The notes beneath the pieces are model-generated. The model was not told the origin of the DNA and made no database searches. It saw only the letters and a list, made by a program, of their open reading frames with translations. Positions 11,640-56,360 of a stretch of DNA of 64,000 nucleotides are shown here, one piece after another. The translations under genes and the position numbers were made by a program. Numbering within the stretch: position 1 is the stretch's first letter; every line of letters starts with the position of its first letter. The DNA comes from an uncultured Alphaproteobacteria bacterium (GTDB lineage: Bacteria > Pseudomonadota > Alphaproteobacteria > UBA6615). The stretch lies in NCBI GenBank assembly GCA_943787745.1, contig CALSNJ010000001.1, positions 62,001-126,000 of the forward strand, in the 5' to 3' direction.

Positions 11640-13330
11640 CTCCGCGCTCCTTCCGCGCTCTCATGCTCTTTGGTGCCCACATCATCAGCAGCGTGGGCCA
11701 TCTTGTAGACTTGATAGAACCGGTGCCCCGAGCCGATCCAGTCGCGAATCAGCCGGGTTTCCCTGTCGACCTGAGGCGCGAACCGTTCGAGGAAGGCCGG
11801 CAGGTCCGCATAGATGGCTTCCTGATCGGAATCATCCGGGAACAAATAATCGCCATGCCAGTCCGGGCCGGCGAAATACCAGCCTGCGAACTCACGAGCA
11901 TTTTCGGCGATTACTTCGCCGTCTGTATCCTCCCACCAACGGGTGCGCAGGGCGGAGAGGTAGTCGTCCCGGTCGCCCGGCTGGAGCACAAAGCCGTTGC
12001 TCCCGTACCAACCGCTATCGGCGACCATCACCGGTGTGCCGATAGAGGGGAGCTCGATCCCGACTGTGCCGAAATAGGTGATCCCCGCATTGATGGCCCG
12101 CATCAGTTCCAGACCGTTCCAGTCTTTCGGGACGACCGCGATGTTGTTGGCGGGTTTTGCCGTGACCAGATCCGCCAGGGTGGGTCCGCGCGAAGACGGA
12201 TACCAGTCATCGCAGGGGTGGGCCTTGAACAGCCAATTGATTTCAGGAGTCTCATGGGCAACCACGAGGGTCGCTTCGATCCAGTCCTGAAAATCCCGGA
12301 AGTTCGTCATTTCAACCGAGTGGGGAAAGTCGAACCAGTTGGTGCCATAGACGCAGACAATCGGCGCTTCCGGGTCCCAGCCGAAGCGCGAAGCGATCCC
12401 TTCTCGGTCGATGGAACCAGCGCGGTCCCGGAATGCGAAGATCGCCCCGACATCATTGCTGTCCCCCGAGAGACGCTGGTCCAGATAGGTTTTTCCTGCA
12501 GCCCGTCGTTCCGCCCGGGTGGCGGCAGGGGCACTTTCGATTTCCTGACGGGTGGGGCTGTTGACGTAATAAAAAATGTCACCGGGTTTCTCGATTCGGA
12601 TGAACCGGACCGACCCGAAATCACCATAGAGAATAACAACAGGAATACTCGACCGCATGGCGCACCAGGCCAGCGCGGAGAAATCGTAATTCAGCGCGTG
12701 GCTCAGCAGCACCAGATCAAACCGGCCCTGATCGATGATGCGACGTGCGGCATCGATATTGGCCAGAGTTTCAGCCAGATAGTCGACCAGCATGGGATCG
12801 TCCGGATTGGCCGTTCCGCGCCGCTGCCGGGTGAGCAAGCCGTCGTAGAAAATTTCTGCCGGAAAGTCCTCGGGCAATTCGAGCTGCATGATGTCGTCCG
12901 GGGTCCGGACGTTCTTCAGCAGGGTTCGGGCGGTTGCCCGGCATCTTGAAATTGAGCCCCGTTCACCGGGGAAATCGACAACGTCGTTTATGCCGAAGCG
13001 GTTGAAGCTGTCCTGCACGCGTTTGCGATTGAACCGGCCGAGCAGCCCTGTTTCGGTGCCGCGCCAGAGTCCGAGCCCGGCCCGGGTGAAAGCGTAGCGG
13101 GTCCAGTAGTTCGGATTGTCCCACATGCCGTCGATCAATACGCGTTCGTAGAGAGGCGGATTCTCGGGGCCCAGATCGGCACGTCGGGACAGCGCATCGA
13201 GCACCGGCATCACGGTGGCGCGTTGTGCCATGACAGCTGCTTCCCGGGCGCGTGCCGCCGGCAGACAGGCCTGCAGCCGGGTGTAGACGTTCCGTGCGGA
13301 TGCGCGCAGACGGGTTTTCAGGGCGTTCAT
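11636..13330 (-). CDS. Putative GT-B-like capsule-type glycosyltransferase
   Basis: 564 residues from the ATG at 13330, chosen because it forms an ATGA overlap with the upstream stop; an in-frame ATG at 13348 would add six residues. An N-terminal alpha-helical region is followed by a two-domain layout with APIVCVYGTNWFDFP (start of the second Rossmann fold), NWLFKAHPCDDWYPS and a C-terminal AGITYFGTVGIELPSIGTPVMVAD segment. The last resembles the nucleotide-sugar site of capsule-type (KpsC/KpsS or 2-epimerase-fold) transferases. No membrane segment is seen. Family assignment is tentative. Confidence 0.58.
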   Translation of the reverse strand: MNALKTRLRASARNVYTRLQACLPAARAREAAVMAQRATVMPVLDALSRRADLGPENPPLYERVLIDGMWDNPNYWTRYAFTRAGLGLWRGTETGLLGRFNRKRVQDSFNRFGINDVVDFPGERGSISRCRATARTLLKNVRTPDDIMQLELPEDFPAEIFYDGLLTRQRRGTANPDDPMLVDYLAETLANIDAARRIIDQGRFDLVLLSHALNYDFSALAWCAMRSSIPVVILYGDFGSVRFIRIEKPGDIFYYVNSPTRQEIESAPAATRAERRAAGKTYLDQRLSGDSNDVGAIFAFRDRAGSIDREGIASRFGWDPEAPIVCVYGTNWFDFPHSVEMTNFRDFQDWIEATLVVAHETPEINWLFKAHPCDDWYPSSRGPTLADLVTAKPANNIAVVPKDWNGLELMRAINAGITYFGTVGIELPSIGTPVMVADSGWYGSNGFVLQPGDRDDYLSALRTRWWEDTDGEVIAENAREFAGWYFAGPDWHGDYLFPDDSDQEAIYADLPAFLERFAPQVDRETRLIRDWIGSGHRFYQVYKMAHAADDVGTKEHESAEGARR

Positions 13331-20649: not shown

Positions 20650-21934
20650 GGAGTGCGCCCGTGGCCTCGGCATCACGCAGGGCGGTTCGGTGTTCGACAA
20701 CCTTGTGGACGGCATCGACCATCTGCTGTTGCTGACCGGATGTGGGGTCCCAGGCGCAGACTTCGTAGACCAGCGCTTCGGTGTCATGCAGGCGCTCGGT
20801 GACGGGGCACAGACCTTCCGCATAGTCCGGCCCGCTGTTGCCGAAGGGGAATCCGTTTTTGCCAATGGCCTGACGTTCACGGAACATTGGCAACCGGTAT
20901 AGCGGCGCAACATAGCCCTCGAAGGACGGAAACCCTTCTGCGGCCAGGGCGCGCTGCATCGTGCGGCGCGAGACTCCGAGGGTTTCGGCGTCGAGACGGA
21001 GGGTCCAGAGATAGAATGCGTGATCGCAGTCTTTGCGTTCATGGGGAATGGCGATGCCGGTGGTGCCGGCAATGCCCTTGCTGAGCGCGCGCGCAATTTC
21101 GATCCGACCATTGATGATCGAATCCGCCCGCGCGATCTGGGCCCGGGCGATGGCGGCCGTGGTTTCGGTCATGCGCAGATTGTAGCCAAAGGTATTGGCC
21201 AGATTGATTTCGCCTTCGACACCGGCCACGTTTTCGCCGTGGTTCCGGATCATCTGAAGCCGGGCGGCAAGGTCATCGTCTTCTGTGGTGCAGATCCCGC
21301 CTTCGCCGCACTGGAGATGCTTGTGCACATTCAGGCTGAACACGCCGATATGCCCGATGGTGCCCGCATAGCGACCGTGCTCGCGCGCCAGCGGCCCCTG
21401 CGCATTGTCTTCGACAAGATAGAGGCCCTTTGAATCCGCCAGCGCACGCAGGGCGATCAGTTCGGCCGGGTGCCCAAACAGGTTTACGGCGATAATGGCG
21501 CGGGTCTGCGGTGTGATCGCCGCGGCGACCTTTTCGGGATCAAGGCAGTAGGTGGCATCTTCCACATCGACAAAGACCGGGACGCCACCATAGGCGATCG
21601 GGGCCACCGCCGTTGCAGACATGGTCCAGGCCGGGACGATGACCTCGTCTCCCGGCGCGATACCGATGGCACCCATGGCCGCGACCAGCCCGGAGGTTGC
21701 CGAATTGACCGACACAGCATGGCGGCATTCAAAGAGTTCGCACCATTCGTCTTCGAGCGCCCGAACGGCCGGGCCACCCAGAAACTCCTTGCCGGGTGAT
21801 CCGTAGAATCCCGAGAGAAGGCCATTGTCCAGCACGTCGAGGACGGCTTTCTTTTCGTCGTCGCCGATCGTGTTGAAAATTGGAAGCGGGTCGGCAACGG
21901 TGGGTGCGCCACCAAGGATCGCGAGCTTGCTCAT
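20639..21934 (-). CDS. DegT/DnrJ/EryC1/StrS-family sugar aminotransferase
   Basis: 431 residues. PLP-dependent fold with SVNSATSGLVAAMGAIG, DEVIVPAWTMSATA, IAVNLFGHPAEL, LVEDNAQGPLA, and the Schiff-base lysine K205 in FSLNVHKHLQCGEGG. The distal part has EGFPSFEGYVAPLYRLPMF. It differs clearly from the two other DegT enzymes in the window (PseC and LegC), so a third amination step exists. Its own substrate is unknown. It overlaps pseI (ATGA) and the SpsF-like gene (11 nt). Confidence 0.84.
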   Translation of the reverse strand: MSKLAILGGAPTVADPLPIFNTIGDDEKKAVLDVLDNGLLSGFYGSPGKEFLGGPAVRALEDEWCELFECRHAVSVNSATSGLVAAMGAIGIAPGDEVIVPAWTMSATAVAPIAYGGVPVFVDVEDATYCLDPEKVAAAITPQTRAIIAVNLFGHPAELIALRALADSKGLYLVEDNAQGPLAREHGRYAGTIGHIGVFSLNVHKHLQCGEGGICTTEDDDLAARLQMIRNHGENVAGVEGEINLANTFGYNLRMTETTAAIARAQIARADSIINGRIEIARALSKGIAGTTGIAIPHERKDCDHAFYLWTLRLDAETLGVSRRTMQRALAAEGFPSFEGYVAPLYRLPMFRERQAIGKNGFPFGNSGPDYAEGLCPVTERLHDTEALVYEVCAWDPTSGQQQQMVDAVHKVVEHRTALRDAEATGALHAD

Positions 21935-22998
21935 AATGTCGTCTTCACCATATCCAGGGATAATGCGCTACCTCGGGAGATGTCGCGGGTGGCGACCTGT
22001 CCGAGAATTGAAGGAAGATGTTTCGGCTCCAGTCCAAAGCCGGGCCGGATTGAGCGCAGGTTCTCCGTGGAGAAAGTCTCGCCAGCCTTGATGTCAGCGA
22101 CCACATAAAGTGAGCGCCGGAAGATCGTGTTGTCTTTCTCGCTCGATTTGAGTGTGTAGTCCACAGAGCCAAGTGCCTCGAAGGCGGCGCGGGTCGCCGT
22201 ACAGAGTTCGGCCAGCTCTTCGGGTTCCAGTGAGAAGGCGGCATCCGGGCCACCATCAGACCGGCGCAATGTGACGTGCTTCTCGATAATCCGCGCGCCC
22301 AGCGCGATCGCCGCGACGGAAACAGCGGTCCCGGGCGTGTGATCCGACAATCCCGGGAGCACATCAAACCTGTCCGCGAGGTCGGGGATGACCCGCAAAT
22401 TGCTGTCGGCAACAGGGGCGGGATATCCGCTCACACAGTGAAGCAGGGCCAAATTCTCTGCGCCGGCCGCGCGGGCGGCGGCAACGGCTTCACCAATTTC
22501 GTCCTGGTTGGCCATACCCGTCGAAATGATCATCGGTTTCCCGGTCTGGGCCACACGCGCGATCAAAGGCAGGTCGATAGCTTCAAAGGAAGCGATCTTG
22601 TAGGCGGGCGCGTCCAGGGATTCGAGCAGATCAACTGCCGTTGAATCAAAGGGGGCACTGAACACCGTCAGGCCGATCTTCCGGCCATGGTCGAAAAGCT
22701 TCTCATGCCATGCCCACGGCGTGTGGGCTTCACCATAGAGTCCATAAAGTGTCTTGCCGGCCCACAGGCCACCATCGATGCGAAACTCGTCCCCGTCGTG
22801 ATCAATGGTGATCGTATCTGCGGTGTATGTCTGCATCTTCAGGGCATCGGCGCCGGCCGCTTTGGCCGCATCCATGATCGCGAACGCGCGTGTGATATCG
22901 CCGTTGTGATTGCCCGACATTTCCGCAATCACATAGGGCGGTGCGTCTGGCCCGATTTTTCGACCGTCGATTTCAAAACTGTGCAGGGTGTTGCTCAT
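21931..22998 (-). CDS. pseI: Pseudaminic acid synthase
   Basis: 355 residues. Characteristic PseI blocks are YVIAEMSGNHNGDITRA, DALKMQTYTADTIT, TVFSAPFDSTAVDLL, PAYKIASFEAIDLPLI, PMIISTGMA, LLHCVSGYPAPVADSNL and AFSLEPEELAEL. The C-terminal SAF domain is about residues 290-350 (IKAGETFSTENLRSIRPGFGL). The enzyme condenses phosphoenolpyruvate with 2,4-diacetamido-2,4,6-trideoxy-altrose, the product of PseG, which is encoded two genes upstream. ATGA overlaps join it to both neighbours. Confidence 0.93.
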   Translation of the reverse strand: MSNTLHSFEIDGRKIGPDAPPYVIAEMSGNHNGDITRAFAIMDAAKAAGADALKMQTYTADTITIDHDGDEFRIDGGLWAGKTLYGLYGEAHTPWAWHEKLFDHGRKIGLTVFSAPFDSTAVDLLESLDAPAYKIASFEAIDLPLIARVAQTGKPMIISTGMANQDEIGEAVAAARAAGAENLALLHCVSGYPAPVADSNLRVIPDLADRFDVLPGLSDHTPGTAVSVAAIALGARIIEKHVTLRRSDGGPDAAFSLEPEELAELCTATRAAFEALGSVDYTLKSSEKDNTIFRRSLYVVADIKAGETFSTENLRSIRPGFGLEPKHLPSILGQVATRDISRGSALSLDMVKTTL

Positions 22999-23590: not shown

Positions 23591-24619
23591 TCAGACCTGA
23601 GACCGCGAAGCTTCGCCGGCCTCGATGATCGGGAGCAGGGTGTTGATCACCCGTTCTGCTCCCGCGCCATCACAAACATCTGCTGCGATCTTGCTCATCT
23701 GTTGCCACGCTTCGGAATCGTCACGAAGTCGCTGTACCGCGCGGGAAACAGATTGTGCCGTGGTCTCCCGGACCAGTTCGACCGCGCCGATCTGTGACAG
23801 TGCTGACGCGATGTCGCGCTGGTTGTCTGCCGTGATGACGGCAACCGTCGGGAGGCCCAGACAGCAGCGCTCCCATGACGTCACGCCGCAGGCGCCAATC
23901 GCCAAATCTGCTGCAATCATTCGCGCTGGCATATTATGAGCCTGCCGGGTCATCTGCATGTCGAAGGGATAGTCATTATCCATATCAGAAAACTCGCCGA
24001 TGACGCTGACACGCCCGGTAAATCCCGACTGCGCCAGACCGTCCAGAAGTACAGCCATGATGCCGGACTGATCTGTTGCGCCGACGCTGATCAGAATTTC
24101 GTCAACCGACAGGGTTTGCGCGCGCCGGGCCAGTGCTTGAGGTCGCCGCTCTGCAAATTCCGGCCGCAGCAAGGCGTAGTCTGTGCCGGTCAGACAAAGA
24201 GTGTTCTCCGGAAGCAGGTCGCGATACGCGTCTGCGTCGCGCCCCAGAGTCATGTCCACCAGCAGGTCCGCGTCATGCGGGCGATCGACCAGATCATCAA
24301 TCACCATGATGTATTGCGCCCAGCCCCGACACGCCGATTCAAGAGCAGCATCCCTCTGGTAATGATCCACGATCAGAAGGTTGACACCTCCGGGAAAAAG
24401 CGCGCGAAGCTCTTCGGCCTCGTGTGCCGGGTCGCCCGAGACAATTTTAACCGATTGCTCTGCGAGGTCTTCGACGAGTTCCTCGCTGCTCTCGATTGTG
24501 GCGAATGCAATATCCCACCCCGCATCCTGCAGGCGCTGGGCCAGCGTCAGGCAACGGCGGATATGTCCCGAACCAATGGCCCGGGCCGCGTCGGCACGCA
24601 CAATTGCCCGCCGTGTCAT
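23591..24619 (-). CDS. pseG: UDP-2,4-diacetamido-trideoxy-altrose hydrolase
   Basis: 342 residues from the ATG at 24619, which overlaps pseC's stop as ATGA. PseG hallmarks are AIVRADAARAIGSGHIRRCLTLAQ at the start (general base His in GSGHIRRC), LLIVDHYQRD, MVIDDLVDRPHDADLLVD, ILISVGATDQSG and AIGACGVTSWERCCLGLP. The enzyme strips UDP to release the free hexose used by PseI. A gap of 11 nt separates it from the formyltransferase gene. Confidence 0.93.
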   Translation of the reverse strand: MTRRAIVRADAARAIGSGHIRRCLTLAQRLQDAGWDIAFATIESSEELVEDLAEQSVKIVSGDPAHEAEELRALFPGGVNLLIVDHYQRDAALESACRGWAQYIMVIDDLVDRPHDADLLVDMTLGRDADAYRDLLPENTLCLTGTDYALLRPEFAERRPQALARRAQTLSVDEILISVGATDQSGIMAVLLDGLAQSGFTGRVSVIGEFSDMDNDYPFDMQMTRQAHNMPARMIAADLAIGACGVTSWERCCLGLPTVAVITADNQRDIASALSQIGAVELVRETTAQSVSRAVQRLRDDSEAWQQMSKIAADVCDGAGAERVINTLLPIIEAGEASRSQV

Positions 24620-25830
24620 GTGAGGTTGCAAACCTTTGCGATAGTGTCGACCACCCGATCCACATCACCGATTGTCATCTCATAGAACAGGGGCAGGCTG
24701 AGTGTTCGCGCGTAATAGCTTTCGGCACCCGGCAATCCCAGATCGGGTGAGAGCGCTCGATAGTAGGGCTGGCGATGCACCGGGATGTAGTGAACCTGTG
24801 TGCCGATGCCTTCCGCGCGCAGCGCCGCCATGATCTTGCCGCGGGGTTTTCCGATCTCTGCGAAATCGATCAGGACCGGGCACAGATGCCAGGCTGTCCC
24901 CGGTGTGGCGTCGGCCGCGGGAAATTTCACGATGGGCGTGAGTGGTGCGAGCCGGTCCTTGTAGTGCTGCATCAGTTGATGCCGTTGCGCAACGAATCGG
25001 TCGAGCTTGCCGAGTTGGGTGCGTCCCAGCGCACAGGCCAGATCGGGCACCCGGTAGTTGAAGCCGGGTGACGGCATTTCATAGTACCAGGGGTTGGTCT
25101 CTCCCTCGGTCATGGCGAGATCGTTCTGGGTAAACCCTTCGGTATTTCGGACGATGCCGTGGTCTCGCATCCGACGCGCCGTTGTGGCGATTGCGTCGTC
25201 ATTGGTGGTCACAAAGCCACCCTCGCCCATGGCGGCGATTTTTACCGGATGCAGCGAGAAGGTTGCGGCATCGCCAAGCGCGCAATCTCCCACGTTCTGC
25301 TCGGCACCATCGGTACCGGCATAGGTGCCGCCAAGCGCGTGGCAGGCATCCTCAATGATCTGCAATCCGTGATCCTGCGCGATGGCATTCAATCCGACCA
25401 TGTCGCAGACCCGTCCGGCCAAATGAACGGGCATCGCCGCCCGGACATGGAGTTTTCCTGCGCGCGCCAGGGCATCCGACAGTGTCTCGGGCGTCATCAG
25501 CCCTGTGTCTGGATCGACATCGGCAAAGATCACCGTTGCCCCGGTGTGCACGACAACATTGGCTGTTGCCACAAAGGTCACGGCAGGCACGATCGCGGCG
25601 TCACCCGGGCCAAGGCCGAGACCCATCACGGCGAGGTGCAATGCGGCAGTTCCGCTGTTGCAGGCGATGGCGTGGCGGGCGCCGGTGTGTTGGGCGGCGG
25701 CATCCTCGAAGGCGGCGACTTCCGGACCCGTGGTGAGGAAATCGCTGCGCAGCACCGCGCTGACGGCGGCGATGTCATCGTCGTCGATACTCTGTCGTCC
25801 ATAAGGAAGGAATGGGGTGTTGTCGGTCAT
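24616..25830 (-). CDS. pseC: UDP-4-amino-4,6-dideoxy-L-AltNAc transaminase
   Basis: 404 residues, DegT fold. The start reads PFLPYGRQSIDDDDI, typical of PseC. Further motifs are LTTGPEVAAFE, CNSGTAALHLAVMGLG, VPAVTFVATANVV, IEDACHALGGTY, and the PLP lysine K197 in FSLHPVKIAAMGEGG. The enzyme aminates the 4-keto product of PseB using glutamate. It is coupled by ATGA overlaps to the fusion gene upstream and pseG downstream. Confidence 0.93.
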   Translation of the reverse strand: MTDNTPFLPYGRQSIDDDDIAAVSAVLRSDFLTTGPEVAAFEDAAAQHTGARHAIACNSGTAALHLAVMGLGLGPGDAAIVPAVTFVATANVVVHTGATVIFADVDPDTGLMTPETLSDALARAGKLHVRAAMPVHLAGRVCDMVGLNAIAQDHGLQIIEDACHALGGTYAGTDGAEQNVGDCALGDAATFSLHPVKIAAMGEGGFVTTNDDAIATTARRMRDHGIVRNTEGFTQNDLAMTEGETNPWYYEMPSPGFNYRVPDLACALGRTQLGKLDRFVAQRHQLMQHYKDRLAPLTPIVKFPAADATPGTAWHLCPVLIDFAEIGKPRGKIMAALRAEGIGTQVHYIPVHRQPYYRALSPDLGLPGAESYYARTLSLPLFYEMTIGDVDRVVDTIAKVCNLT

Positions 25831-30831: not shown

Positions 30832-32013
30832 CTACTTTTGTGAACCGGGTGCAACACCGATGCGTGTCCACTTGTCATAGTCCCAAGGCTTTTGATCCAT
30901 CTTGTGCGCCTGCGCCCAATCGTAGTCCAACGGCTCATGTGGATCGACCACATGCTCTCCGACCAATTCCATGAATTCACGTTCATCGATGCCCAGATAG
31001 TCGAGAAACAAATCCAGGGATGCCGGACGTTTGCCATCATATTCGTTGACCAGCCGCTCACCCTCCTCGCGGGTCATGCGGCCGTTGCGGATATCGATGG
31101 AAGCCAGATGAGCGGTCCGACCAAATCCGCGCTTGAGATACTTGATGTAGTCCCGCACGCCCTGCATGAAACATTCGATTTTCTCATAGTCGTATTCGGG
31201 CGGTACGCCCTCGACCTCATCACCCTGCCAGCCGAGTTCGTCCTTGATCAGGTCGACCTGTTTGCGCACATCCCAGGGGATGAAGGAGCCCAGACAGACC
31301 GAACGCACGCGTTCGCGTCGGAGGTCGGCCGCGGGCGGGTATGTGTATGGTTTCAGGTCACGCGCCGTGACCGGAAAGTCGGAGATCGTATTGTCGAGCA
31401 TGCCGAGCATATCTTCGGCATTGATGCCGAGATTCACGACCGTGTTGAAGCGGCGTTCGTCGACTTCTTCTTCCTCGTCATAGCTATAGAAGGAGGAGTA
31501 CTCCGCCGAGGGTTCACCCCAAATCACCAGCGGAACCTTTTTCTCCAGCGCCACCCACATAGGATAGGAGAAGATCCCGGTGTGGCAGTGCCAGCAAAAA
31601 TCACCACGCCGCCGCAGGGCCTCGAACATGAGCTTGCGGACCACCTGCCAGTTCGGTGTGAAGTCGAGCACATCAACACCCAGAGTCCGGAAGGTCCGAA
31701 GGTTGTTCTCGATCAGAGTCGGACGCATGAAGCCGTGATTGAATCGGACGACCAAAGGTTTGAGTCCGAGTTCACGCACCAGATACCAGAGGGTATAGGT
31801 CGAATCCTTGCCGCCCGAGAACGGCACGATGCAGTCATAGTCATACTTCCCGCGCGCGCTCTCGATGATGTCATTGAGCTCGATGCGTTTTGTCGTCCAG
31901 TCGATTCCGGTCTGTTTGAACTCGACCTGATCACAGACGGAGCAGACGCCGGCATCATCAAATCCAAGCGTTTCGGCCGTTTCCGGCATGACACATCGGG
32001 AGCAGCTTTTCAT
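30832..32013 (-). CDS. WbpG/PseA-type N-acetyl sugar amidotransferase paralogue 3
   Basis: 393 residues, intact. N-terminal SCSRCVMPET and CSVC cysteines, canonical PP-loop DCIVPFSGGKDSTYTLWYL, then LKPLVVRFNHGF, a HCHTG motif (zinc or active-site segment), LVIWGEPSAEYSSFYSYDEEEEVD and GFGRTAHLASIDIRNGRMTREE. It is the second gene of the pseB operon and stands 61 nt upstream of the hisH/hisF pair. Its position next to pseB makes it the best candidate for PseA (acetamidino form of Pse), but the pairing is inferred. Confidence 0.85.
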   Translation of the reverse strand: MKSCSRCVMPETAETLGFDDAGVCSVCDQVEFKQTGIDWTTKRIELNDIIESARGKYDYDCIVPFSGGKDSTYTLWYLVRELGLKPLVVRFNHGFMRPTLIENNLRTFRTLGVDVLDFTPNWQVVRKLMFEALRRRGDFCWHCHTGIFSYPMWVALEKKVPLVIWGEPSAEYSSFYSYDEEEEVDERRFNTVVNLGINAEDMLGMLDNTISDFPVTARDLKPYTYPPAADLRRERVRSVCLGSFIPWDVRKQVDLIKDELGWQGDEVEGVPPEYDYEKIECFMQGVRDYIKYLKRGFGRTAHLASIDIRNGRMTREEGERLVNEYDGKRPASLDLFLDYLGIDEREFMELVGEHVVDPHEPLDYDWAQAHKMDQKPWDYDKWTRIGVAPGSQK

Positions 32014-32028
32014 GACCTTGGGAACCTT

Positions 32029-33066
32029 CTATGCCTCGGCCTTCGCGAGCATGTCGCGAAAACCCTGCTGGTCGAGCCAGTGGCTGTTGGTGTTGCTGGC
32101 GTAGGAGAAACCCTCTTCCAGGGCGGTGGCGTTTCGGGCGATGTAACGTTCACGCAACGCCGTATTGTCAGAGGGTAAAATGACATAGCGGTCAGGCAGT
32201 TCGACGGTCGATCGAGCATCGTCTTCGGTGACCATGATCTCGTGTAACTTTTCGCCGGGCCGTATGCCTACGGTGACTTGCGGAAGTTCGGGTGCGATGG
32301 CACCCGCCACATCGGTCACCTTCATGCTCGGAATCTTGGGAACGAAGACTTCGCCGCCCTCCATGTTTCCAAGGCAGGAGAGAACAAACTCAACACCCTG
32401 AGTGATGGTGATCCAGAAGCGGGTCATCCGGTCATCTGTGATCGGGACTTCTGTTGCGCCAGTGTCCACGAGCCGCCGGAAGAACGGCACGACACTGCCA
32501 CGTGATCCAGCGACATTGCCGTAGCGCACCACTGCGTAGGTCGGCCGGCCGCCGCTCAAATTGTTGCCCGCTACGAAAATCTTGTCGGCGGCCAGTTTGC
32601 TGGCACCATAAAGATTGACCGGGTTGGCCGCTTTGTCGGTCGAAAGTGCGACGATGCGTTTAACGTTTGTGCGAATGGACGCTGTGACGACGTTTTCGGC
32701 GCCGTGAACGTTGGTCCTGATGCATTCGAAAGGATTGTATTCGGCGGCCGGGACGTGCTTCAGCGCGGCCGCGTGGATGACGTAGTCGACATCCCGCATT
32801 GCCATTTCCAGCCGGTCAACATCGCGTACATCGCCGATGAAATAGCGCATGCATTCGTGCCCCTGAAAGTCGGGATTCTGCTGCATCTCATACTGCTTGA
32901 GCTCATCGCGTGAGAACACGATCAGTTTGCGTGGCTTGTAGCGCGTGAGCACCGTGCGGATGAAGGCCTGGCCAAAAGACCCGGTGCCGCCTGTGATCAT
33001 AACGGACATGCCGTTGAGATCCGGCGCGTTCTCGTCAAGATAATCGGGGTCGAAGGATGATGTCAT
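32029..33066 (-). CDS. pseB: UDP-GlcNAc 4,6-dehydratase (inverting), first Pse pathway enzyme
   Basis: 345 residues from the ATG at 33066 (an in-frame TTG at 33096 would add ten). NAD loop VMITGGTGSFGQAFI, FSRDELKQYEM, HAAALKHVPAAEYNPFE, STDKAANPVNLYGASKLAADK (Y153/K157 dyad and the PseB-type TDKA), VVRYGNVAGSRGSV and TRFWITITQGVEFVL. The enzyme makes the 4-keto-L-arabino sugar from UDP-GlcNAc. No Shine-Dalgarno sequence precedes the ATG. It is the first gene after the operator-containing promoter and the ops-like site, so it heads the long operon. Confidence 0.94.
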   Translation of the reverse strand: MTSSFDPDYLDENAPDLNGMSVMITGGTGSFGQAFIRTVLTRYKPRKLIVFSRDELKQYEMQQNPDFQGHECMRYFIGDVRDVDRLEMAMRDVDYVIHAAALKHVPAAEYNPFECIRTNVHGAENVVTASIRTNVKRIVALSTDKAANPVNLYGASKLAADKIFVAGNNLSGGRPTYAVVRYGNVAGSRGSVVPFFRRLVDTGATEVPITDDRMTRFWITITQGVEFVLSCLGNMEGGEVFVPKIPSMKVTDVAGAIAPELPQVTVGIRPGEKLHEIMVTEDDARSTVELPDRYVILPSDNTALRERYIARNATALEEGFSYASNTNSHWLDQQGFRDMLAKAEA

Positions 33067-33200
33067 GGAAACCGGTGTTCTGCGGGGTGGAATCAAGCTG
33101 GTCTGGCGTTCTTGCGATCCACAAGAGGGTCATTCGTCAGACATGCTACCGCACTCAGGGTGAATCGACACCGCGAGCGCTCCGCTTGAGATTGCGGCGC
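33067..33200 (-). other. Long untranslated leader of the pseB operon
   Basis: About 130 nt separate the predicted transcription start (near 33194) and the pseB ATG. The leader carries the ops-like element (separate entry). A four-codon ATG-to-TGA frame begins inside that element (33144). No Shine-Dalgarno sequence precedes pseB. RfaH-dependent operons characteristically have long leaders and weak or absent ribosome-binding sites. The leader is the place where an RfaH-type factor would load. Confidence 0.6.
33142..33153 (-). promoter_or_regulatory. ops-like element (RfaH recruitment site) in the pseB leader
   Basis: The minus strand reads TGCGGTAGCATG, which matches the E. coli ops sequence GGCGGTAGCGTG at 10 of 12 positions, including the whole GCGGTAGC core. 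The non-template strand can fold TGC-GGTA-GCA, the ops-type small hairpin with the GGTA loop; the two differences from ops create an extra T-A pair. It lies about 40-50 nt downstream of the predicted start site. An RfaH-like gene is present at 47.5 kb in the same island. Confidence 0.65.
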
Positions 33201-33229
33201 ATTGTTCATGTGTTGAACACGACTGTCAA
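33201..33229 (-). promoter_or_regulatory. Predicted sigma-70 promoter of the pseB operon
   Basis: On the minus strand a perfect TTGACA (33224-33229) is followed by a 17-bp spacer and AACAAT (33201-33206, 4/6 to TATAAT). Transcription would start near 33194. It lies in the 226-bp AT-richer gap between pseB and the SGNH gene. The operator palindrome fills the spacer and reaches the -10, which implies repression. Confidence 0.6.
33203..33219. promoter_or_regulatory. Operator palindrome TGTTCA-N5-TGAACA in the pseB promoter
   Basis: A perfect 6-bp-arm inverted repeat with a 5-bp centre (TGTGT), placed between the -35 and -10 of the pseB promoter. The core GTTCA-N5-TGAAC recurs only twice more that I found, both times directly upstream of the winged-helix gene at 48.6 kb. 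A ten-base pattern is expected about 0.06 times by chance in 64 kb. Confidence 0.7.
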
Positions 33230-47496: not shown

Positions 47497-48012
47497 CTAG
47501 CTGGCGGGTGCCAGCGCTGTAAGCGGCATCTTTACGCGCACCTGACGGCCCAGAAGTTCAAGCAACAGGAACACACGATGCTGGTCTGAAGGAGCATCGA
47601 ATATGCCGACTTGGTCGCTCATGGCCCCGTCGGTGATGCGCACCTTGTCACCCTTCTGGAGTCCCGCACGTTCCCCAAGGACGACATAGCCGCTTTCATC
47701 CTCGTGGCGGCGAATGTCATTGATAACGTCATCGGGTACTGGTGCGGGCAATCCGCTATGGCAAATCAGTTCGCTGACACCGACCGTGGAATTCAATGCC
47801 CGCCAGCGGGCTCGTTCCGGGTCCATCCCGACAAACAGGTAGCCCGGAAACAACGGCGTCTGGACCGTGTCGGTTTTTCGCGCGTGGCGTCGACGCTTGA
47901 GATAACGGGGCAGGTAGCCGTCGAAACCCTGGCGCATGATATGCGCAAGCGCCTTGAACTCGCCATTGGGATGGGTCCGGACCACGAACCAGCGTTTGTT
48001 GGCCACGGTCAT
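47497..48012 (-). CDS. RfaH/NusG-family specialised antitermination factor
   Basis: 171 residues. The NGN domain (about 8-105) has KRWFVVRTHPNGEFKALAHI, the hallmark TPLFPGYLFVGMDPE and LNSTVGVSELICHSG, which align with RfaH (PLFPNYLFV, INATRGVSHFV) better than with housekeeping NusG. The C-terminal KOW-type domain (about 115-165) has KGDKVRITDGAMSDQVGIFD and VFLLLELLGRQVRVKMP. RfaH binds paused RNA polymerase at ops and prevents termination in long surface-glycan operons. It overlaps the winged-helix gene as ATGA and is therefore under that gene's promoter. Confidence 0.88.
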   Translation of the reverse strand: MTVANKRWFVVRTHPNGEFKALAHIMRQGFDGYLPRYLKRRRHARKTDTVQTPLFPGYLFVGMDPERARWRALNSTVGVSELICHSGLPAPVPDDVINDIRRHEDESGYVVLGERAGLQKGDKVRITDGAMSDQVGIFDAPSDQHRVFLLLELLGRQVRVKMPLTALAPAS

Positions 48013-48641
48013 GATTGTGCCTCGCTGATTCGGAGAAGCGAGGGTACGAACACACGCTGTGCCGGAAAGCTTTTGATCAGCGAGTCATACGCGGCCTGGG
48101 GGTCGGCGAGGGTTGTCAGCAACAGCGCGTCGATTTCACCAACCGCTTCGATGGATCCGACCACAGGGAACTGGGCAAAACTGTCATGGCCGTAGTCTGG
48201 GTCGACAATTGCCACGATTGAAACATCGGCTGCTTCGCAGAGCGAGGCAACTTCGGCGAGTTCGCTGGCGCCATACAGCGCGATTCTGGTCCACCCGCGT
48301 TGGCTGGCGGTCAGCAGGGCTTCGGTACATTGGTTGCGGGCGCTGCGGAAAAATCGAAATGAATCCGAGAGATATTCAGCGGTCAGACGGCTCTTCTCCG
48401 CAAACCCCTGAGGTGTGAGGTAGTAGGCGTAACGATTGGCGGGTGCCTGACTGACTTTGATCAGTCCCTTCTTGGCACAGCGTTTGAGATAGGCATTGGC
48501 AAGCCCCAGCGCGATGCCGAGTTCCTGCGCGACGGAACGTTGGGTGATCCGCTCGTTCTCATGCACAGCGTTGAGGATGCCCAGAGTGATCTCGGCATCA
48601 TCGGCCTTGCCCGGCGTTGAAATGCGTTCCGCGTTGCTCAT
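48009..48641 (-). CDS. Winged-helix regulator with C-terminal Rossmann-like domain
   Basis: 210 residues. Residues about 18-85 form a winged helix: ITLGILNAVHENERITQRSVAQELGIALGLANAYLKRCAKKGLI, then YAYYLTPQGFAEKSRL. Residues about 112-205 look like a Rossmann/CoA-binding or PglD-type fold: RIALYGASELAEVASLCEAADVSIVAIVDPDYG, DALLLTTLADPQAAYDSL. It could sense a nucleotide, a nucleotide sugar or redox state. Two operator palindromes lie 9-47 nt upstream of its ATG, implying autoregulation. It is followed by the RfaH-like gene and preceded by cysNC (84-bp gap). Confidence 0.8.
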   Translation of the reverse strand: MSNAERISTPGKADDAEITLGILNAVHENERITQRSVAQELGIALGLANAYLKRCAKKGLIKVSQAPANRYAYYLTPQGFAEKSRLTAEYLSDSFRFFRSARNQCTEALLTASQRGWTRIALYGASELAEVASLCEAADVSIVAIVDPDYGHDSFAQFPVVGSIEAVGEIDALLLTTLADPQAAYDSLIKSFPAQRVFVPSLLRISEAQS

Positions 48642-48648
48642 ATCACTC

Positions 48649-48665
48649 CGTTCACTTTATGAACG
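48649..48665. promoter_or_regulatory. Operator palindrome CGTTCA-N5-TGAACG, proximal copy
   Basis: A perfect inverted repeat (6-bp arms, centre CTTTA) just 8 nt upstream of the winged-helix ATG. Binding here would block the promoter exit and ribosome site. Its centre is 22 bp from that of the second copy, so both face the same side of the helix. Confidence 0.68.
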
Positions 48666-48691
48666 TAGTGCGTTCAAACGATGAACGTCAA
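48662..48691 (-). promoter_or_regulatory. Predicted promoter of the winged-helix/RfaH-like operon
   Basis: On the minus strand TTGACG (48686-48691), an 18-bp spacer and TACGTT (48662-48667, weak -10). The distal operator fills the spacer, and the proximal one covers the start region. This copies the layout of the pseB promoter (-35, then palindrome). The -10 is poor, so transcription may also come from cysDNC read-through. Confidence 0.4.
48671..48687. promoter_or_regulatory. Operator palindrome CGTTCA-N5-TGAACG, distal copy
   Basis: A perfect inverted repeat (6-bp arms, centre AACGA) that overlaps the end of the predicted -35 box of the winged-helix gene. Its core is identical to the site in the pseB promoter. 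Confidence 0.68.
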
Positions 48692-48725
48692 GTGATTCAA
48701 TGGATTAGTCGGATCAGTGTGTCGG

Positions 48726-51699: not shown

Positions 51700-52971
51700 A
51701 TGTCTGCATCACCGAAAATTGCCGTTATTGGCCTTGGCTATGTCGGCTTGCCGCTGGCTGTGCACCTGGCGCACCATTTTGAAATTATTGGTTTCGATGT
51801 GGATGCCGGACGGGTGACAGAGCTTCGTGCGGGGAAAGACCGAACCGGTGAGATCAGTCCGGAGAAACTGAGCGCTTCGACAATTACGATCACCGATGAC
51901 GAGTCCGCGATGGATGGTGCGGATGTTTTCATCGTCACCGTTCCCACCCCGGTCGATGCGCGCAATCGCCCGGATCTTTCTGCCATTCGCGCGGCGAGCG
52001 AAACAGTGGCCCGCCATATCGCAAAGGGCGCGATCGTTGTCTACGAATCAACAGTCTATCCGGGCGTCACCGAAGATGAATGCGGTCCCATTCTGGCCAC
52101 CGGTTCGGGTCTGGTCTGTGGAGAAGAATTTTTCCTCGGGTATTCTCCGGAACGGATCAACCCGGGTGATCGTGAACATACGGTTGACCGTATTACAAAA
52201 ATTGTTGCCGGCCAGACGCCCGCAGTCACCGAGAAGCTGGCTGAGATCTATGGTTCTCTGAATGGAGGCGATATCTACCGCGCGCGCGATATTCGTACCG
52301 CTGAGGCCGCCAAGGTAATTGAGAACGCCCAACGCGATATCAACATCGCCTTCGTCAACGAAGTCGCGATGATTCTCAACGGCATGGACCTTGATGTGCA
52401 CGACGTGCTTGATGCCGCGAACACCAAATGGAATTTCCTGCCCTTTCGCCCCGGCCTTGTCGGCGGACACTGTATCGGCGTTGACCCGTTCTATCTGGCA
52501 CACGCCGCGCAATCGACAGGGCTGCATCCCGAAATCGTGCTGGCCGGTCGTCGCATCAACGATGCCATGGGCCCCTATATTGCCCATGAAATTCATGATG
52601 CGCTGGGTGGCGAAAAAGGGCGCGTTCTTGTTCTGGGGCTGACCTTCAAGGAGAACGTTCCCGATCTCCGGAACTCGCGTGTCGTCGATATCGTGACCAC
52701 CTTGCGTGATCAGGGGCACGAGGTGGATGTGCACGACCCTCAGGCTTCACCCGAGGAAGCCAAGTCGCTTTTCGATATTGATTTGCTGACGTCCCTCAGC
52801 GACCTGAATGGTTATGCGGCCGTTGTGGGTGCTGTGAAGCATCGTGAATATGATGAACTGGATGCGGTCTCTCTTGAAGCATTGATCGCCGAAGGCGGCT
52901 TGTTGGCGGACATCAAGGGAATCTGGCGCAATATCACTCTGGGTGAAAATATTCGCCGCTGGCAGCTTTAG
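51700..52971 (+). CDS. Nucleotide-sugar (UDP-HexNAc) 6-dehydrogenase, WbpA/TviB-like
   Basis: 423 residues from the ATG at 51700. NAD fold KIAVIGLGYVGLPLAVHLA, then IVTVPTPVDARNRPDLS, VVYESTVYPGVTEDECGP, FLGYSPERINPGDREHT, and the thiohemiacetal cysteine C258 in RPGLVGGHCIGVDPFYL; C-terminal LVLGLTFKENVPDLRNSRV. The VPTP-DARNRPDLS block is characteristic of UDP-GlcNAc/GalNAc dehydrogenases rather than UDP-glucose dehydrogenase. The uronic acid product would be a substrate for the AsnB-type amidotransferase at 39-41 kb. Its stop overlaps the convergent ptmE stop by 2-3 nt. Confidence 0.9.
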   Translation: MSASPKIAVIGLGYVGLPLAVHLAHHFEIIGFDVDAGRVTELRAGKDRTGEISPEKLSASTITITDDESAMDGADVFIVTVPTPVDARNRPDLSAIRAASETVARHIAKGAIVVYESTVYPGVTEDECGPILATGSGLVCGEEFFLGYSPERINPGDREHTVDRITKIVAGQTPAVTEKLAEIYGSLNGGDIYRARDIRTAEAAKVIENAQRDINIAFVNEVAMILNGMDLDVHDVLDAANTKWNFLPFRPGLVGGHCIGVDPFYLAHAAQSTGLHPEIVLAGRRINDAMGPYIAHEIHDALGGEKGRVLVLGLTFKENVPDLRNSRVVDIVTTLRDQGHEVDVHDPQASPEEAKSLFDIDLLTSLSDLNGYAAVVGAVKHREYDELDAVSLEALIAEGGLLADIKGIWRNITLGENIRRWQL

Positions 52972-54098
52972 AAGATCGACGCGAAATCCGCGTTGGCCCG
53001 TCGGTAATCGTCGATCTGACCGATATCCACCCAGTATTCCTCCACCGGATAGGCGCTTGTGCGCAGACCTGCGGCCCGACAATCGTCAAACAATTGGGGC
53101 ATGTCATAGGCCTGATCGCGCGGCACGAAATCCAGCGCTGACGGGCTGAGGACATAGATGCCTGCATTGATGAAGTGCCGTGTGACGGGTTTTTCGCGCA
53201 GGCTCCGGATTTCGTTATTGTCCACTTCAACAACCCCGTAAGGCACCTGCACCTCATAGCTGCGAACAGCCATCGTGGCGGTCGCGTCATTGTCACGGTG
53301 GAAATCAATCATCTGAACCGGATCGAGTTTGGAAAGAATGTCCCCGTTCATGACAAGCAGTGGGGTGTCGTGCTGCTTTGCAAGCCGTGCGATGGGCCCG
53401 GCGGTGCCGAGCGGCATGTCTTCCTCGATATAGGAGACATCCACGCCCAGTGCGTCACCATTGCCGAAATGGTTCCGGATGACATCCGCGCGATAGTTGA
53501 CTGAAATGTGAAACTCCGAGAACCCGGCAGCCGCAAAGCGCCGAATGATGGTCTCAAGAATGGGGCGTCCGCCAACATCGAGCATCGGCTTGGGTGTGTG
53601 TTCTGTCAGGGGGCGAAGTCGTCTGCCTTCGCCGCCGGCCATCAGGACAATCGGATATGGCTGACTTTCTGGGGTGAGAAGCGCATCCAGCGTGATCAGG
53701 TCGACCGCGCGGCCGGCAAAATCAATCACCGGGATATGTTTTATCTTCTGATGACGCATGAATGTCAGGACGTCACCGCGCGGCTCGCCGAAGCGAATTG
53801 TGCGTGGCGCGGTGTTCATGATCAGGCGTACCGGGGCGTCGGTCTGGATGCCGCGTAGCAACCCGCGCCGAAGGTCACCATCTGTCACGGTGCCCAAAAG
53901 TTTCCGTTGGGGATCTATCACCAGTCCGATCTGCACACGCTGGGTTGTGAAGCGCTCGATCAGGGTATGGATGGACGTGTCTGGGCCGATCAGACTCTGG
54001 GCGAGCAGCGATTGCGGCGACGCCACAGGCTTGAGAGCGGGAGCTGCCGGGGTTTCGGCTTCGCGCAGGGCGGGAATATGTGAGAGAGCTGCGTCCAT
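52968..54098 (-). CDS. ptmE: CBS-domain nucleotidyltransferase (PtmE-like glucosamine-1-P guanylyltransferase)
   Basis: 376 residues. Two CBS repeats fill about 30-145 (LLGTVTDGDLRRGLL, KIKHIPVIDFAGRAVDLI). The sugar-phosphate nucleotidyltransferase follows: YPIVLMAGGEGRRLRPLTEHTPKPML (from residue 149), ISVNYRADVI, MPLGTAGPIARL, LVMNGDILSK, INAGIYVLSP and EEYWVDIGQIDDY. The CBS-plus-NTase order is that of Campylobacter PtmE, which makes GDP-GlcN for the GDP-legionaminic pathway. It follows legC by 32 nt. A 7-bp hairpin runs into its start codon. Confidence 0.83.
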   Translation of the reverse strand: MDAALSHIPALREAETPAAPALKPVASPQSLLAQSLIGPDTSIHTLIERFTTQRVQIGLVIDPQRKLLGTVTDGDLRRGLLRGIQTDAPVRLIMNTAPRTIRFGEPRGDVLTFMRHQKIKHIPVIDFAGRAVDLITLDALLTPESQPYPIVLMAGGEGRRLRPLTEHTPKPMLDVGGRPILETIIRRFAAAGFSEFHISVNYRADVIRNHFGNGDALGVDVSYIEEDMPLGTAGPIARLAKQHDTPLLVMNGDILSKLDPVQMIDFHRDNDATATMAVRSYEVQVPYGVVEVDNNEIRSLREKPVTRHFINAGIYVLSPSALDFVPRDQAYDMPQLFDDCRAAGLRTSAYPVEEYWVDIGQIDDYRRANADFASIF

Positions 54099-54113
54099 GG
54101 ATTTTCAATCCAT
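54097..54113 (-). repeat. Perfect hairpin overlapping the ptmE start codon
   Basis: The minus strand reads ATGGATT-GAA-AATCCAT, a 7-bp stem with a 3-nt loop; its 3' end includes the A and T of the ptmE ATG. It could hold back ptmE translation or be a protein-binding palindrome. There is no U-tract, so it is not a terminator. Confidence 0.45.
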
Positions 54114-54130
54114 AGAATGCGCTGAAAACT

Positions 54131-55354
54131 TTAACGATCCGTTGACGATGATGCCTCTGAAAGGGGCAATCCGGCGCCTGATGGCAACAGCAAACCTCTG
54201 GCTGAGAGGTCTTCGGTGACCGACAAACCCATGCGGGGATTGTCACAATACATCGGCATGTGGTGCAGGGGTGTCCAGACTGCCCGGCACTGATATCCGG
54301 CCTCGTTCAATTCCGAGAATGCTGCGTTGCGCGCCTGTTGGGTCTCGAACAGCACGGCGTTCAGCCAATAGTTGCTCCTGCCCCATTTGGGATGTGTGAC
54401 TGTTGAGACACCCTCCAGGCCTTCAAGAGCATCAGCGTAGCGTGCGGCAAGGATTTGTTTGGACTTCAGTTTTGAGTCCAGAGTTTCGAGTTGTGCGCAG
54501 CCCAGCGCGGCATTCAGATTGGGCATTCTATAGTTGAAGCCGACCGCATCATGGATGAGTTCTGTGCCGTCTCCCGCACGTGCTGTTGTCGTCAGGTGTC
54601 GCAGCCGCCGGGCGAACAATTCGTCATCGGTGATGATGGCGCCGCCGCCACCGGTGGTGATGGTTTTGTTGCCGTTGAAGCTGAGAACACCGGCGCGCCC
54701 GAAACGTCCGGTGTGGCAATCTCCGATGAAACTCCCCAGAGATTCTGCAGCATCCTCGATCAGGGTCAGATTGTAGCGCGCCACGATCCCGCGCAGCAGT
54801 TCCATATTCACCGGGTGGCCGTAGCAATGCACAGGAACAATGGCGCGCACGGGTGCATCGGTGTGCCGGTTGACGAATTGGCCGTCCCGGCATGTGAGAG
54901 TCATGTCGAGATACTGATCGAGTGCAGCTGGATCGAGGCCAAGGCTTTGGGCCTCGCACTCAACAAAATGCGGGGTCGCCCCGCAATAGTGGATGGCGTT
55001 TGCGGTGGCGACAAAGGTGAAGGATGGGACCAGCACCTCGTCCCCCGGGCGCACGCCGGCGGCGTAGAGAGCTGCATGTAACGCAGCCGTGCCGTTCACA
55101 GTGGCGATGGCATGTCGGGCACCCGTGGTTTGGGTGATCATATCCTCGAAACGATCCACCCATTTTCCGACCGAGGAAACCCAGCCGGTGTCGAGGCAAT
55201 CCTTTACATAGTCCCAGGCATTCCCATCGATCTCCGGTGCGTGGAGGGGGTGTGGGCCATCGTGCGGTGACAACACCGTGGAAATCCGCTCAAGAATGTT
55301 TTGGCCTTTTGGGGGTGCTGTCTCGACGAGGGAACCTAGGGTCTGGTCAGACAT
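54131..55354 (-). CDS. legC: LegC-like aminotransferase
   Basis: 407 residues, DegT fold: GNAWDYVKDCLDTGWVSSVGKWVDRFE (LegC-type opening), TVNGTAALHAALYAAG, DEVLVPSFTFVATANAI, PVHCYGHPVNMELL, LIEDAAESLGSFIGD, and the PLP lysine K230 in SFNGNKTITTGGGG. It aminates the 4-keto sugar made by LegB, from which it is separated by an 8-nt overlap. The C-terminus (SEASSSTDR) is shorter than usual; a frame change near 54136 would add IVKVFSAFYG, so a small 3' indel is possible. Confidence 0.87.
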   Translation of the reverse strand: MSDQTLGSLVETAPPKGQNILERISTVLSPHDGPHPLHAPEIDGNAWDYVKDCLDTGWVSSVGKWVDRFEDMITQTTGARHAIATVNGTAALHAALYAAGVRPGDEVLVPSFTFVATANAIHYCGATPHFVECEAQSLGLDPAALDQYLDMTLTCRDGQFVNRHTDAPVRAIVPVHCYGHPVNMELLRGIVARYNLTLIEDAAESLGSFIGDCHTGRFGRAGVLSFNGNKTITTGGGGAIITDDELFARRLRHLTTTARAGDGTELIHDAVGFNYRMPNLNAALGCAQLETLDSKLKSKQILAARYADALEGLEGVSTVTHPKWGRSNYWLNAVLFETQQARNAAFSELNEAGYQCRAVWTPLHHMPMYCDNPRMGLSVTEDLSARGLLLPSGAGLPLSEASSSTDR

Positions 55355-56360
55355 TATAGAGATGGGCCTTGTACCCGGCCCGGTTGGCCGGGGCGGCGAA
55401 CCAGTCGATCGTTGCCTCCAGCCCGCGCCGGAATCCGGTCAATCCGGCATGGGCAGGCTGCCAGCCAATCAGTTCAGCTGCCTTTCGGTTGTCACACCAA
55501 AGGCGTTCAACTTCCGAAGCGTCGGGGCGCAGGCGTGTGTCCTCGGTTTCGATGATGAGTTCCACACCCATGAGGTCGGCGATGGTCTGGGCGGTATCTC
55601 CGACCGAGATTTCAAAGTTTGTCCCGATATTCACCACATCACCAACTGCCCCGTTGCTCTCGGCAGCGGCCAGGAACCCGGCGACAGTGTCGCTGACATA
55701 GGTGAAATCCCGTGTTGGTGCGATGGCGCCCAGACGGATTTTGGCGGGTCCGTTCTGGGGGTCATGAGCAGCCAGTTGTGTGATGATTGTCGGGATCACC
55801 GCGCGTGCGGATTGGCGTGGGCCATAGGTGTTGAAGGGGCGCACCACGGTCACCGGTGTCCCGAAGGAGCGCCCGTAGCTGAGAGCGATCTGATCTGCGC
55901 CGACCTTCGTGGCGGCATAGGGTGATTGCGGGTTTAACGGATGGGCTTCGTCGATGGGAACATATTGCGCGGTGCCATAGACCTCGCTGGTGGAGGTGTG
56001 GACAACGCGCGACACGCCAAGGTCGGTCGCAGCCTGAACCACATTCAGCGTGCCTGTGACGTTGGTGTCGACATAGCTTTCCGGCGCAAGATAGGAATAC
56101 GGAATTCCGATCAACGCGGCGAGATGCAGCACGGTTTCACATCCCGCCATGGCCTGACGCACGGCATGGGAGTCACGGATATCTCCGGCGATGATCTCGA
56201 TAGTGTCCAGGGTTTCAGGAGCGGCGTCGTCGAGCCAGCCCCAGGATCCGCGGGAATCATATTCAACAAACGCGCGGACGTCTGCGCCGTCTGCGGCGAG
56301 TTTCTCCACCAGATGGGAGCCGATGAAACCACCAGCACCTGTAACAAGAACCTTCGACAC
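55347..56360 (-). CDS. legB: LegB-like NAD-dependent 4,6-dehydratase
   Basis: 337 residues. NAD loop KVLVTGAGGFIGSHLVEKL, EYDSRGSWGWLD (as in LegB), HLAALIGIPYSYLAPESYVDTNVTGTLNV, HTSTSEVYGTA, and Y148/K152 in SPYAATKVGADQIALSY; then RPFNTYGPRQSARAVIP. In the GDP branch it dehydrates GDP-GlcNAc. With legC and ptmE it forms the early legionaminate module. The late steps (NeuC-, NeuB-, NeuA-like) are 47 kb away in the pseB operon. A CtrA-like box lies 60-77 bp upstream. Confidence 0.88.
   Translation of the reverse strand: MSKVLVTGAGGFIGSHLVEKLAADGADVRAFVEYDSRGSWGWLDDAAPETLDTIEIIAGDIRDSHAVRQAMAGCETVLHLAALIGIPYSYLAPESYVDTNVTGTLNVVQAATDLGVSRVVHTSTSEVYGTAQYVPIDEAHPLNPQSPYAATKVGADQIALSYGRSFGTPVTVVRPFNTYGPRQSARAVIPTIITQLAAHDPQNGPAKIRLGAIAPTRDFTYVSDTVAGFLAAAESNGAVGDVVNIGTNFEISVGDTAQTIADLMGVELIIETEDTRLRPDASEVERLWCDNRKAAELIGWQPAHAGLTGFRRGLEATIDWFAAPANRAGYKAHLYNV

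Follow-up and report, generated by a model that had tools for sequence, protein, structure and literature searches.

What does a pair of overlapping regulatory genes do between sulfate-activation and sugar-biosynthesis genes in the genome of an uncultured Alphaproteobacteria bacterium (UBA6615)? The question is raised by a 64,000-nucleotide stretch of contig CALSNJ010000001.1 (positions 62,001 to 126,000), here called the window. The first-pass annotation, made from the letters alone, had described the two genes as a portable control cassette. They are as follows.

48009 to 48641, minus strand (read 48641→48009): regulator with a winged helix-turn-helix (wHTH) and a Rossmann domain, 210 amino acids, assigned from the open reading frame, HTH_24 and MarR_EPS matches, the AlphaFold2 model and fold comparison
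47497 to 48012, minus strand (read 48012→47497): RfaH-like NusG paralog, 171 amino acids, assigned from the NusG domain, the RfaH model and the closest solved structures, which are RfaH

The genes are joined by a stop/start overlap, ATGA, at 48009-48012 on the minus strand, as the first-pass annotation had stated. Its placement of the pair between sulfate-activation and nonulosonate genes also turned out to be right: cysD-cysNC lie upstream, with a gap of 84 bp between the regulator gene and cysNC (stop at 48726), and a CMP-sugar cytidylyltransferase gene lies downstream in convergent orientation. The order cysD–cysNC–pair is retained in the window's genus and in a sister genus. The 3.27-Mb genome has one regulator of the wHTH–Rossmann kind and two NusG-family genes. 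Besides the pse operon described below, the window contains another nonulosonate set at 52968-56360, upstream of cysD-cysNC and the pair (LegB, LegC and a CBS-domain nucleotidyltransferase); it has no exact copy of the operator treated further down.

The AlphaFold2 model of the regulator (74 homologues) comprises a wHTH at about residues 12-62, a long linker helix at 77-114 and a Rossmann domain at 117-210. The winged helix matches HTH_24 (E 3e-12), and its closest curated family is MarR_EPS (TIGR04176), at 61.8 bits and under the 88-bit cut-off of that family. The MarR_EPS model, named 'EPS-associated transcriptional regulator', matches residues 17-95, and the family shares with the window regulator its location in a polysaccharide locus; its members, however, have about 105-140 amino acids and no Rossmann domain, whereas the window regulator carries this domain in addition. 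The C-terminal domain is confidently predicted to adopt a Rossmann fold (pLDDT about 97). In the fold comparison, WbaP is closest by Z (9.4 over 86 residues), followed by Rex repressors (about 9 over 92-95 residues) and quinovosamine dehydrogenase (3nkl, 8.7); the fold is so common that these Z values do not show the function of the domain. The 'PglD-like' label given earlier to this domain is supported at the level of the fold only, at which it resembles the cytoplasmic Rossmann domain of WbaP and PglD/quinovosamine-dehydrogenase-like domains, since residues 100-210 gave no Pfam family match at E 0.1. The pairing of a wHTH with a Rossmann domain, which had been called unusual, is real in the predicted structure but has a parallel in the Rex repressors, where the same two domains follow each other in the same order. 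Rex and the window regulator are about 13-19% identical; their single domains superpose but the whole chains do not (different domain orientation, whole-length rmsd of about 19 Å), and their operators and gene contexts differ. Ligands of Rossmann domains are usually bound after the strands of the sheet, and the conserved residues G124, D147, T176 and P200 of the regulator are placed there. A nucleotide-type ligand is therefore plausible, these positions being compatible with it rather than proof of it; a CMP or UDP sugar is a guess. No carrier of the regulator was found among phage records at E 1e-5.

The second protein of the pair contains a NusG domain (E 1.9e-19), and its best family is RfaH (TIGR01955), with 124.7 bits and under the cut-off of 144.5. 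The antiterminator models for UpxY/UpxZ and LoaP gave 79.8 of 100 and 38.8 of 125 bits, respectively, both under cut-off. UpxY/UpxZ and LoaP resemble the window protein in being NusG paralogs whose genes accompany the polysaccharide or other long operon served, but they have no promoter repressor partner of the present kind. The other NusG-family gene of the genome, at C2:1117387, has a higher NusG score and is evidently the housekeeping NusG, beside which the gene of the pair is a paralog. Four side chains of E. coli RfaH contact the ops element, K10, H20, R23 and R73 (PMC5995543). H20 and R23, as well as Q24, are identical in the window protein (H24, R27, Q28); in most relatives, N occupies position 20. 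The window protein has H14 and V77 in place of K10 and R73, so that ops recognition, to judge from the alignment, must differ in detail from that of E. coli RfaH. The C-terminal domain is modelled by AlphaFold2 as a beta barrel, unlike the autoinhibited alpha hairpin of E. coli RfaH; the prediction alone cannot settle fold switching. According to a 2026 preprint, predicted monomorphic NusG-like RfaHs tend toward a genomic context other than that of E. coli-like RfaHs; for the latter, the adjacent operons are probably not the ones targeted (PMC13015549).

A scan of 84,980 species genomes found 169 loci, and the nearest 80 of them (79 distinct) were analysed. Nearly all are from Alphaproteobacteria, with a few in metagenome-assembled genomes labelled otherwise; many are metagenome-assembled, and the relatives are not independent, so kinship inflates the counts. 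In this sample, the rfaH-like gene directly follows the wHTH gene in 73 of the 79 distinct loci, and one of the six others ends at a contig end. A start codon permitting the same 4-nt overlap is present in 63 of the 73 pair loci. The pairwise divergences of both proteins are correlated (r 0.70, 66 loci; at most 0.14 in 2000 permutations), in line with joint inheritance of the two genes, although common descent alone contributes. The pair is common but not obligatory, given that the wHTH gene stands without an adjacent rfaH in several genomes (L062, L072, L087, L097 and Chelatococcus plasmids). One could argue that the two are ordinary neighbouring regulators brought together by a shared location in glycan islands, with no joint circuit. 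The Chelatococcus plasmids fit this reading, as does the generally diverse, glycan-rich neighbourhood of RfaH genes (PMC7593976). We regard it as quite unlikely in view of the 4-nt overlap in most loci, the correlated divergence far above any permutation, and the occurrence of operator and ops in the same leaders, described below.

The first-pass annotation had postulated an operator-rich promoter common to both genes, and the 84-bp gap does carry the palindrome CGTTCAN5TGAACG twice, at 48649-48665 and 48671-48687, within and next to a predicted promoter. An overlapping repeat in reverse order, TGAACGN5CGTTCA, is present as well, and the half-sites alternate every 11 bp.

48671 to 48687, CGTTCATCGTTTGAACG as read on the minus strand: operator 1, in the -35/-10 spacer of the pair promoter
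48649 to 48665, CGTTCATAAAGTGAACG as read on the minus strand: operator 2, overlapping the -10 and start region
48662 to 48691, minus strand: predicted pair promoter, TTGACG (48686-48691), 18-nt spacer, TACGTT (48662-48667)

Exact GTTCAN5TGAAC occurs four times in the 3.27-Mb genome: twice at the pair, once at the promoter of a pse (pseudaminic-acid) operon and once inside a gene. The last site, at C1:358131, lies in a repeat-rich coding sequence and was taken as chance or irrelevant. Seven sites with at most one mismatch were found in the window, three of them exact, vs. 1.65 expected by chance; the one-mismatch sites are at 411, 18891, 41803 and 44273. In the nearest 80 of the 169 loci (1.06 Mb), the exact operator occurs 109 times next to the regulator gene vs. 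15 times elsewhere, and each of eight other palindromes built in this way is found 0-3 times, so its frequency is far beyond chance. An exact copy lies upstream of the regulator in 69 of the 79 distinct loci, and a copy with at most one mismatch in 77. The operator belongs to the wider wHTH family, beyond the Rossmann-bearing branch, since an exact site lies by the start of four of the five over-cut-off MarR_EPS members found in the phylum. One of these (L135) also has an rfaH-like gene and a high-scoring ops-like element. On a Sulfitobacter plasmid (L184, about 4925-4995), a MarR_EPS gene is accompanied by GTTCATCCGTGAAC, whose centre is 4-nt rather than 5-nt, directly followed by the ops-like string GCGGTAGCCGTG.

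The alphaproteobacterial SOS box is GTTCN7GTTC, and the palindrome likewise contains GTTC. That it is a LexA site or the box of another global regulator is nevertheless barely conceivable: the repeat is inverted rather than direct, there are only four copies in the genome, and in the same nearest loci it tracks the regulator family in 77 of 79 cases, including MarR_EPS relatives outside the class.

The position of the operator within the promoter is stereotyped, TTGAC-GTTCAN5TGAAC-~N4-TA. TTGAC was found in 73 of 77 of these nearest loci, and in 69 occurrences across the 77 the operator begins 5 nt downstream of the first base of TTGAC; with this register, the operator fills the -35/-10 spacer. 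A second operator often lies 22-24 or 27 bp away, 22-24 bp being the commonest spacing in relatives, and in most loci this second site is at -10/+1 or just upstream of -35. The spacer is in general a repressor's position, and the location of the operator there supports repression. MerR-type activators also bind between -35 and -10, however, and the predicted -10 hexamers of the pair and pse promoters (TACGTT and AACAAT) are weak, as might be expected if the wHTH protein were an activator or a MerR-like spacer remodeller. MerR promoters have stretched spacers of 19-20 nt. The present ones are of 17-18 nt, with strong -35 elements (TTGACA/TTGACG), the second site suits exclusion of the polymerase, and in the MarR_EPS relatives the start region is also covered by an operator. 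Activation is thus unlikely, and repression is the reading retained below.

The nearest large glycan operon, where the first-pass annotation had proposed to look for the palindrome and an ops motif, has both in its leader, and the combination recurs elsewhere.

33204 to 33218, GTTCAACACATGAAC as read on the minus strand: third exact operator, inside the predicted pse promoter, one of the four in the genome
33201 to 33229, minus strand: predicted pse promoter, TTGACA (33224-33229), 17-nt spacer, AACAAT (33201-33206)
33142 to 33164, minus strand: ops-like element TTCACCCTGAGTGCGGTAGCATG, one mismatch to GGCGGTAGCATG, with TGCGGTAGCATG at 33142-33153
32029 to 33096, minus strand: pseB, first gene of the target operon (TIGR03589, 513 bits, over cut-off), start probably at an ATG near 33066
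30832 to 32013, minus strand: WbuX-type N-acetyl sugar amidotransferase (TIGR03573, 356 bits, over cut-off)
24616 to 25830, minus strand: pseC (TIGR03588, 475 bits, over cut-off)
23591 to 24631, minus strand: pseG (TIGR03590, 226 bits, over cut-off)
21931 to 22998, minus strand: pseI (TIGR03586, 498 bits, over cut-off)

Further closely spaced glycan genes on the same strand continue toward 2490, and the gene spacing suggests that the pse operon is one transcript of about 30 kb. The leader runs operator, promoter, ops, pseB, with TGCGGTAGCATG 50 nt downstream of the operator, and the presence of both elements in this one leader is established at the sequence level, as are the gene pair, its operators and their promoter register. 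The ops element has a matrix score of 30.3 bits vs. 4.1 for the next best site in the window, and an operator followed by ops within 35-65 nt is found once in the genome. The string GCGGTAGCATG occurs only twice in the 3.27 Mb; the second copy lies at C3:147878, where it overlaps an SH3-like coding sequence at its start, with no operator nearby, and was taken as chance.

The ops sequence of E. coli, which we take to be GGCGGTAGCGTG, numbered as in PMC5995543, agrees with the mutants and pause positions quoted there. Its core GCGGTAGC is identical in the window pse leader, and both elements are part of the untranslated leader ahead of a long surface-glycan operon that a NusG paralog would serve. 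At positions 1 and 10, E. coli ops has G, whereas the window element has T and A. The window element differs further in having a conserved upstream block, TTCACCCGGA, and the window factor in standing in an operon with a dedicated DNA-binding regulator, unlike the RfaH/ops (JUMPstart) system of E. coli. The block, just upstream of the core in the window (33142-33164) and its relatives, is conserved about as strongly as parts of the core. An RNA hairpin was considered as an explanation of this TTCACCC block and rejected, because the folds of five sequences disagree.

If the wHTH protein regulated its own operon only, the pse operator would be a chance match and the RfaH-like protein would act elsewhere. 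A single glycan-promoter copy in the genome is in keeping with this, as is the exact palindrome inside a coding region, which illustrates that stray matches are possible. But the pse copy lies exactly within a TTGACA-17-AACAAT promoter and is followed by ops at a distance of 50 nt; in the congener G003 (L154), two one-mismatch operators and ops are retained at the syntenic pse promoter; and this arrangement is met again in other genera as well as in another family. Restriction to the own operon is accordingly very unlikely, and control of the pse operon by the pair is the reading that we follow.

In relatives, the string GCGGTAGC[A/G]TG, i.e., GCGGTAGCATG plus GCGGTAGCGTG, occurs 32 times in the nearest 80 of the 169 loci vs. 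twice for the reversed strings, mostly at roughly 50-105 bp after the stop codon of the rfaH-like gene. A matrix made from these sites has the consensus TTCACCCGGActGCGGTAGCrTGgaaa, and the scores are nearly two-peaked, most sites being above 20 bits and the background mostly below about 13. An ops-like site within 400 bp downstream of the cassette was found in 39 of 73 testable loci of the same sample vs. 4 of 2131 random segments, by a matrix that is partly circular, having been trained on some of the counted loci; some of the four random matches are probably real sites. The exact-string counts are free of this circularity, as are those in the genomes of the window's family, where 14 of the 16 genomes that have an intact regulator gene contain perfect TCACCCN5GCGGTAGC and none of the 8 that lack one does (Fisher P, calculated by hand, about 6e-5, kinship ignored).

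Cassette and target occur in two ARRANGEMENTS. The commoner order is operator–wHTH–rfaH–ops–glycan genes, from which it follows that a single promoter would suffice and that ops would form a checkpoint between the regulatory and the biosynthetic genes. In the other layout, to which the window belongs, the target lies apart from the cassette and has both operator and ops at its promoter. Eight of 13 family ops sites away from the cassette have an operator with at most one mismatch within 160 bp upstream, and five do not; among random 160-bp segments, 1.8% (85/4800) have such an operator. Another family supplies three genomes in which pair and glycan operon are transcribed divergently; as many as four operators separate the two, and ops follows 67-68 nt from where the last operator begins. 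The window, L154, L160, L163, L130, L131 and L132 share one layout, a TTGAC-N5/6-operator and then an ANT or NNT -10. Class-wide, the exact bipartite arrangement of operator and ops with a 40-70 spacer was found in 4 of 385 genomes, a search too strict for cases with ops directly behind the cassette.

Two further types of leader were encountered. In L024 (about 12320-12410), L025 (about 10345-10425) and L026 (about 11016-11105), operator and ops stand ahead of a short TonB-like gene, convergent with a TonB-dependent receptor gene, instead of a long glycan operon; a strong TTGACT-17-TACTGT promoter overlaps the operator. L093 contains, at 2396-2795, a second leader with two operators and ops, roughly 6 kb from the complete cassette of the same locus, which suggests that one cassette may serve two operons.

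As to the 'portable' nature of the cassette, its neighbours differ between loci, two copies can occur in one genome and regulator copies without an adjacent rfaH are carried by plasmids, all of which would be compatible with the term. The two-copy cases are the genome bin G018 (L026, L051) and the record set PBCW01 (L046, L061), each with two different copies, which may reflect contamination of the bins; in G018, ops lies directly behind only one copy. On the Chelatococcus plasmids (L182, L183; 6898-8790), the regulator has two operators and neither an adjacent rfaH-like gene nor ops. It overlaps there by 4 nt with gmd (GDP-mannose 4,6-dehydratase), an overlap indicating that the wHTH gene can be coupled to a biosynthetic gene instead of rfaH. 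A degenerate, interrupted copy of the wHTH region in L017/L019 (G008:C32:42303-42599), in a relative whose genome has no perfect ops, gives the impression of a system in decay.

Taken together, the cassette is most likely a two-tier control unit in which a repressor and an RfaH-like factor gate one long operon for surface glycan. The wHTH–Rossmann protein, which is probably dimeric, would bind GTTCAN5TGAAC, as co-conservation strongly suggests, and by its position would block both its own promoter and the pse promoter by filling the -35/-10 spacer. The same transcript yields the RfaH-like protein, which would be recruited when RNA polymerase reaches ops in the pse leader, as its co-occurrence with ops and the conserved core indicate, and, by analogy with the RfaH family, would let the polymerase complete the operon of about 30 kb. 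A nucleotide or sugar-nucleotide ligand at the Rossmann domain presumably frees the repressor, a speculative step. Release of the repressor would then open the promoter and supply the antiterminator together. Such a circuit would amount to a double lock of the coherent feed-forward type, with negative autoregulation as its limit. Repression rather than activation, loading of the RfaH-like protein at ops, the ligand and the continuity of the operon are the steps that we infer. The proposal of the first-pass annotation that a repressor and an antiterminator from one transcript gate initiation and elongation thereby gains support from conservation of the pair, the operator in the promoter spacer and the leader that combines operator and ops.

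Wang et al. (2020; PMC7593976) described an association of RfaH cluster CL4 with an HTH regulator and noted that E. coli RfaH is the only one whose recruitment is understood in detail. The CL4 association, given at the level of COG categories, is very probably the same as the window pair; the CL4 text describes neither an operator nor a promoter layout for it, and names no ops element or shared target. The literature searched gave no description of the operator, of alphaproteobacterial ops or of a leader shared by operator and ops, although a prior one is possible. No paper was found on the function of MarR_EPS, and none on the operator in degenerate form. Among the papers listed for the string TTGACGTTCA, none was on the present system.

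On balance, we lean toward the view that this is an undescribed, widespread alphaproteobacterial module, in which a wHTH–Rossmann repressor and an RfaH are made from one transcript, the targets carry an operator in the promoter spacer together with ops, one sensed metabolite would gate both initiation and elongation, and ops would be read without two of the canonical RfaH contacts. An ops element and an RfaH-like protein with altered contacts are present across Alphaproteobacteria, the factor being tied to a dedicated regulator and the sites predicted base by base. The two-part address can serve as a search key for targets and here points to one place in 3.27 Mb. Two questions thereby become directly testable: by what means specialised NusG paralogs locate their operons in bacteria other than enterics, and how transcription of very long glycan operons is coordinated in the cell from start to finish.
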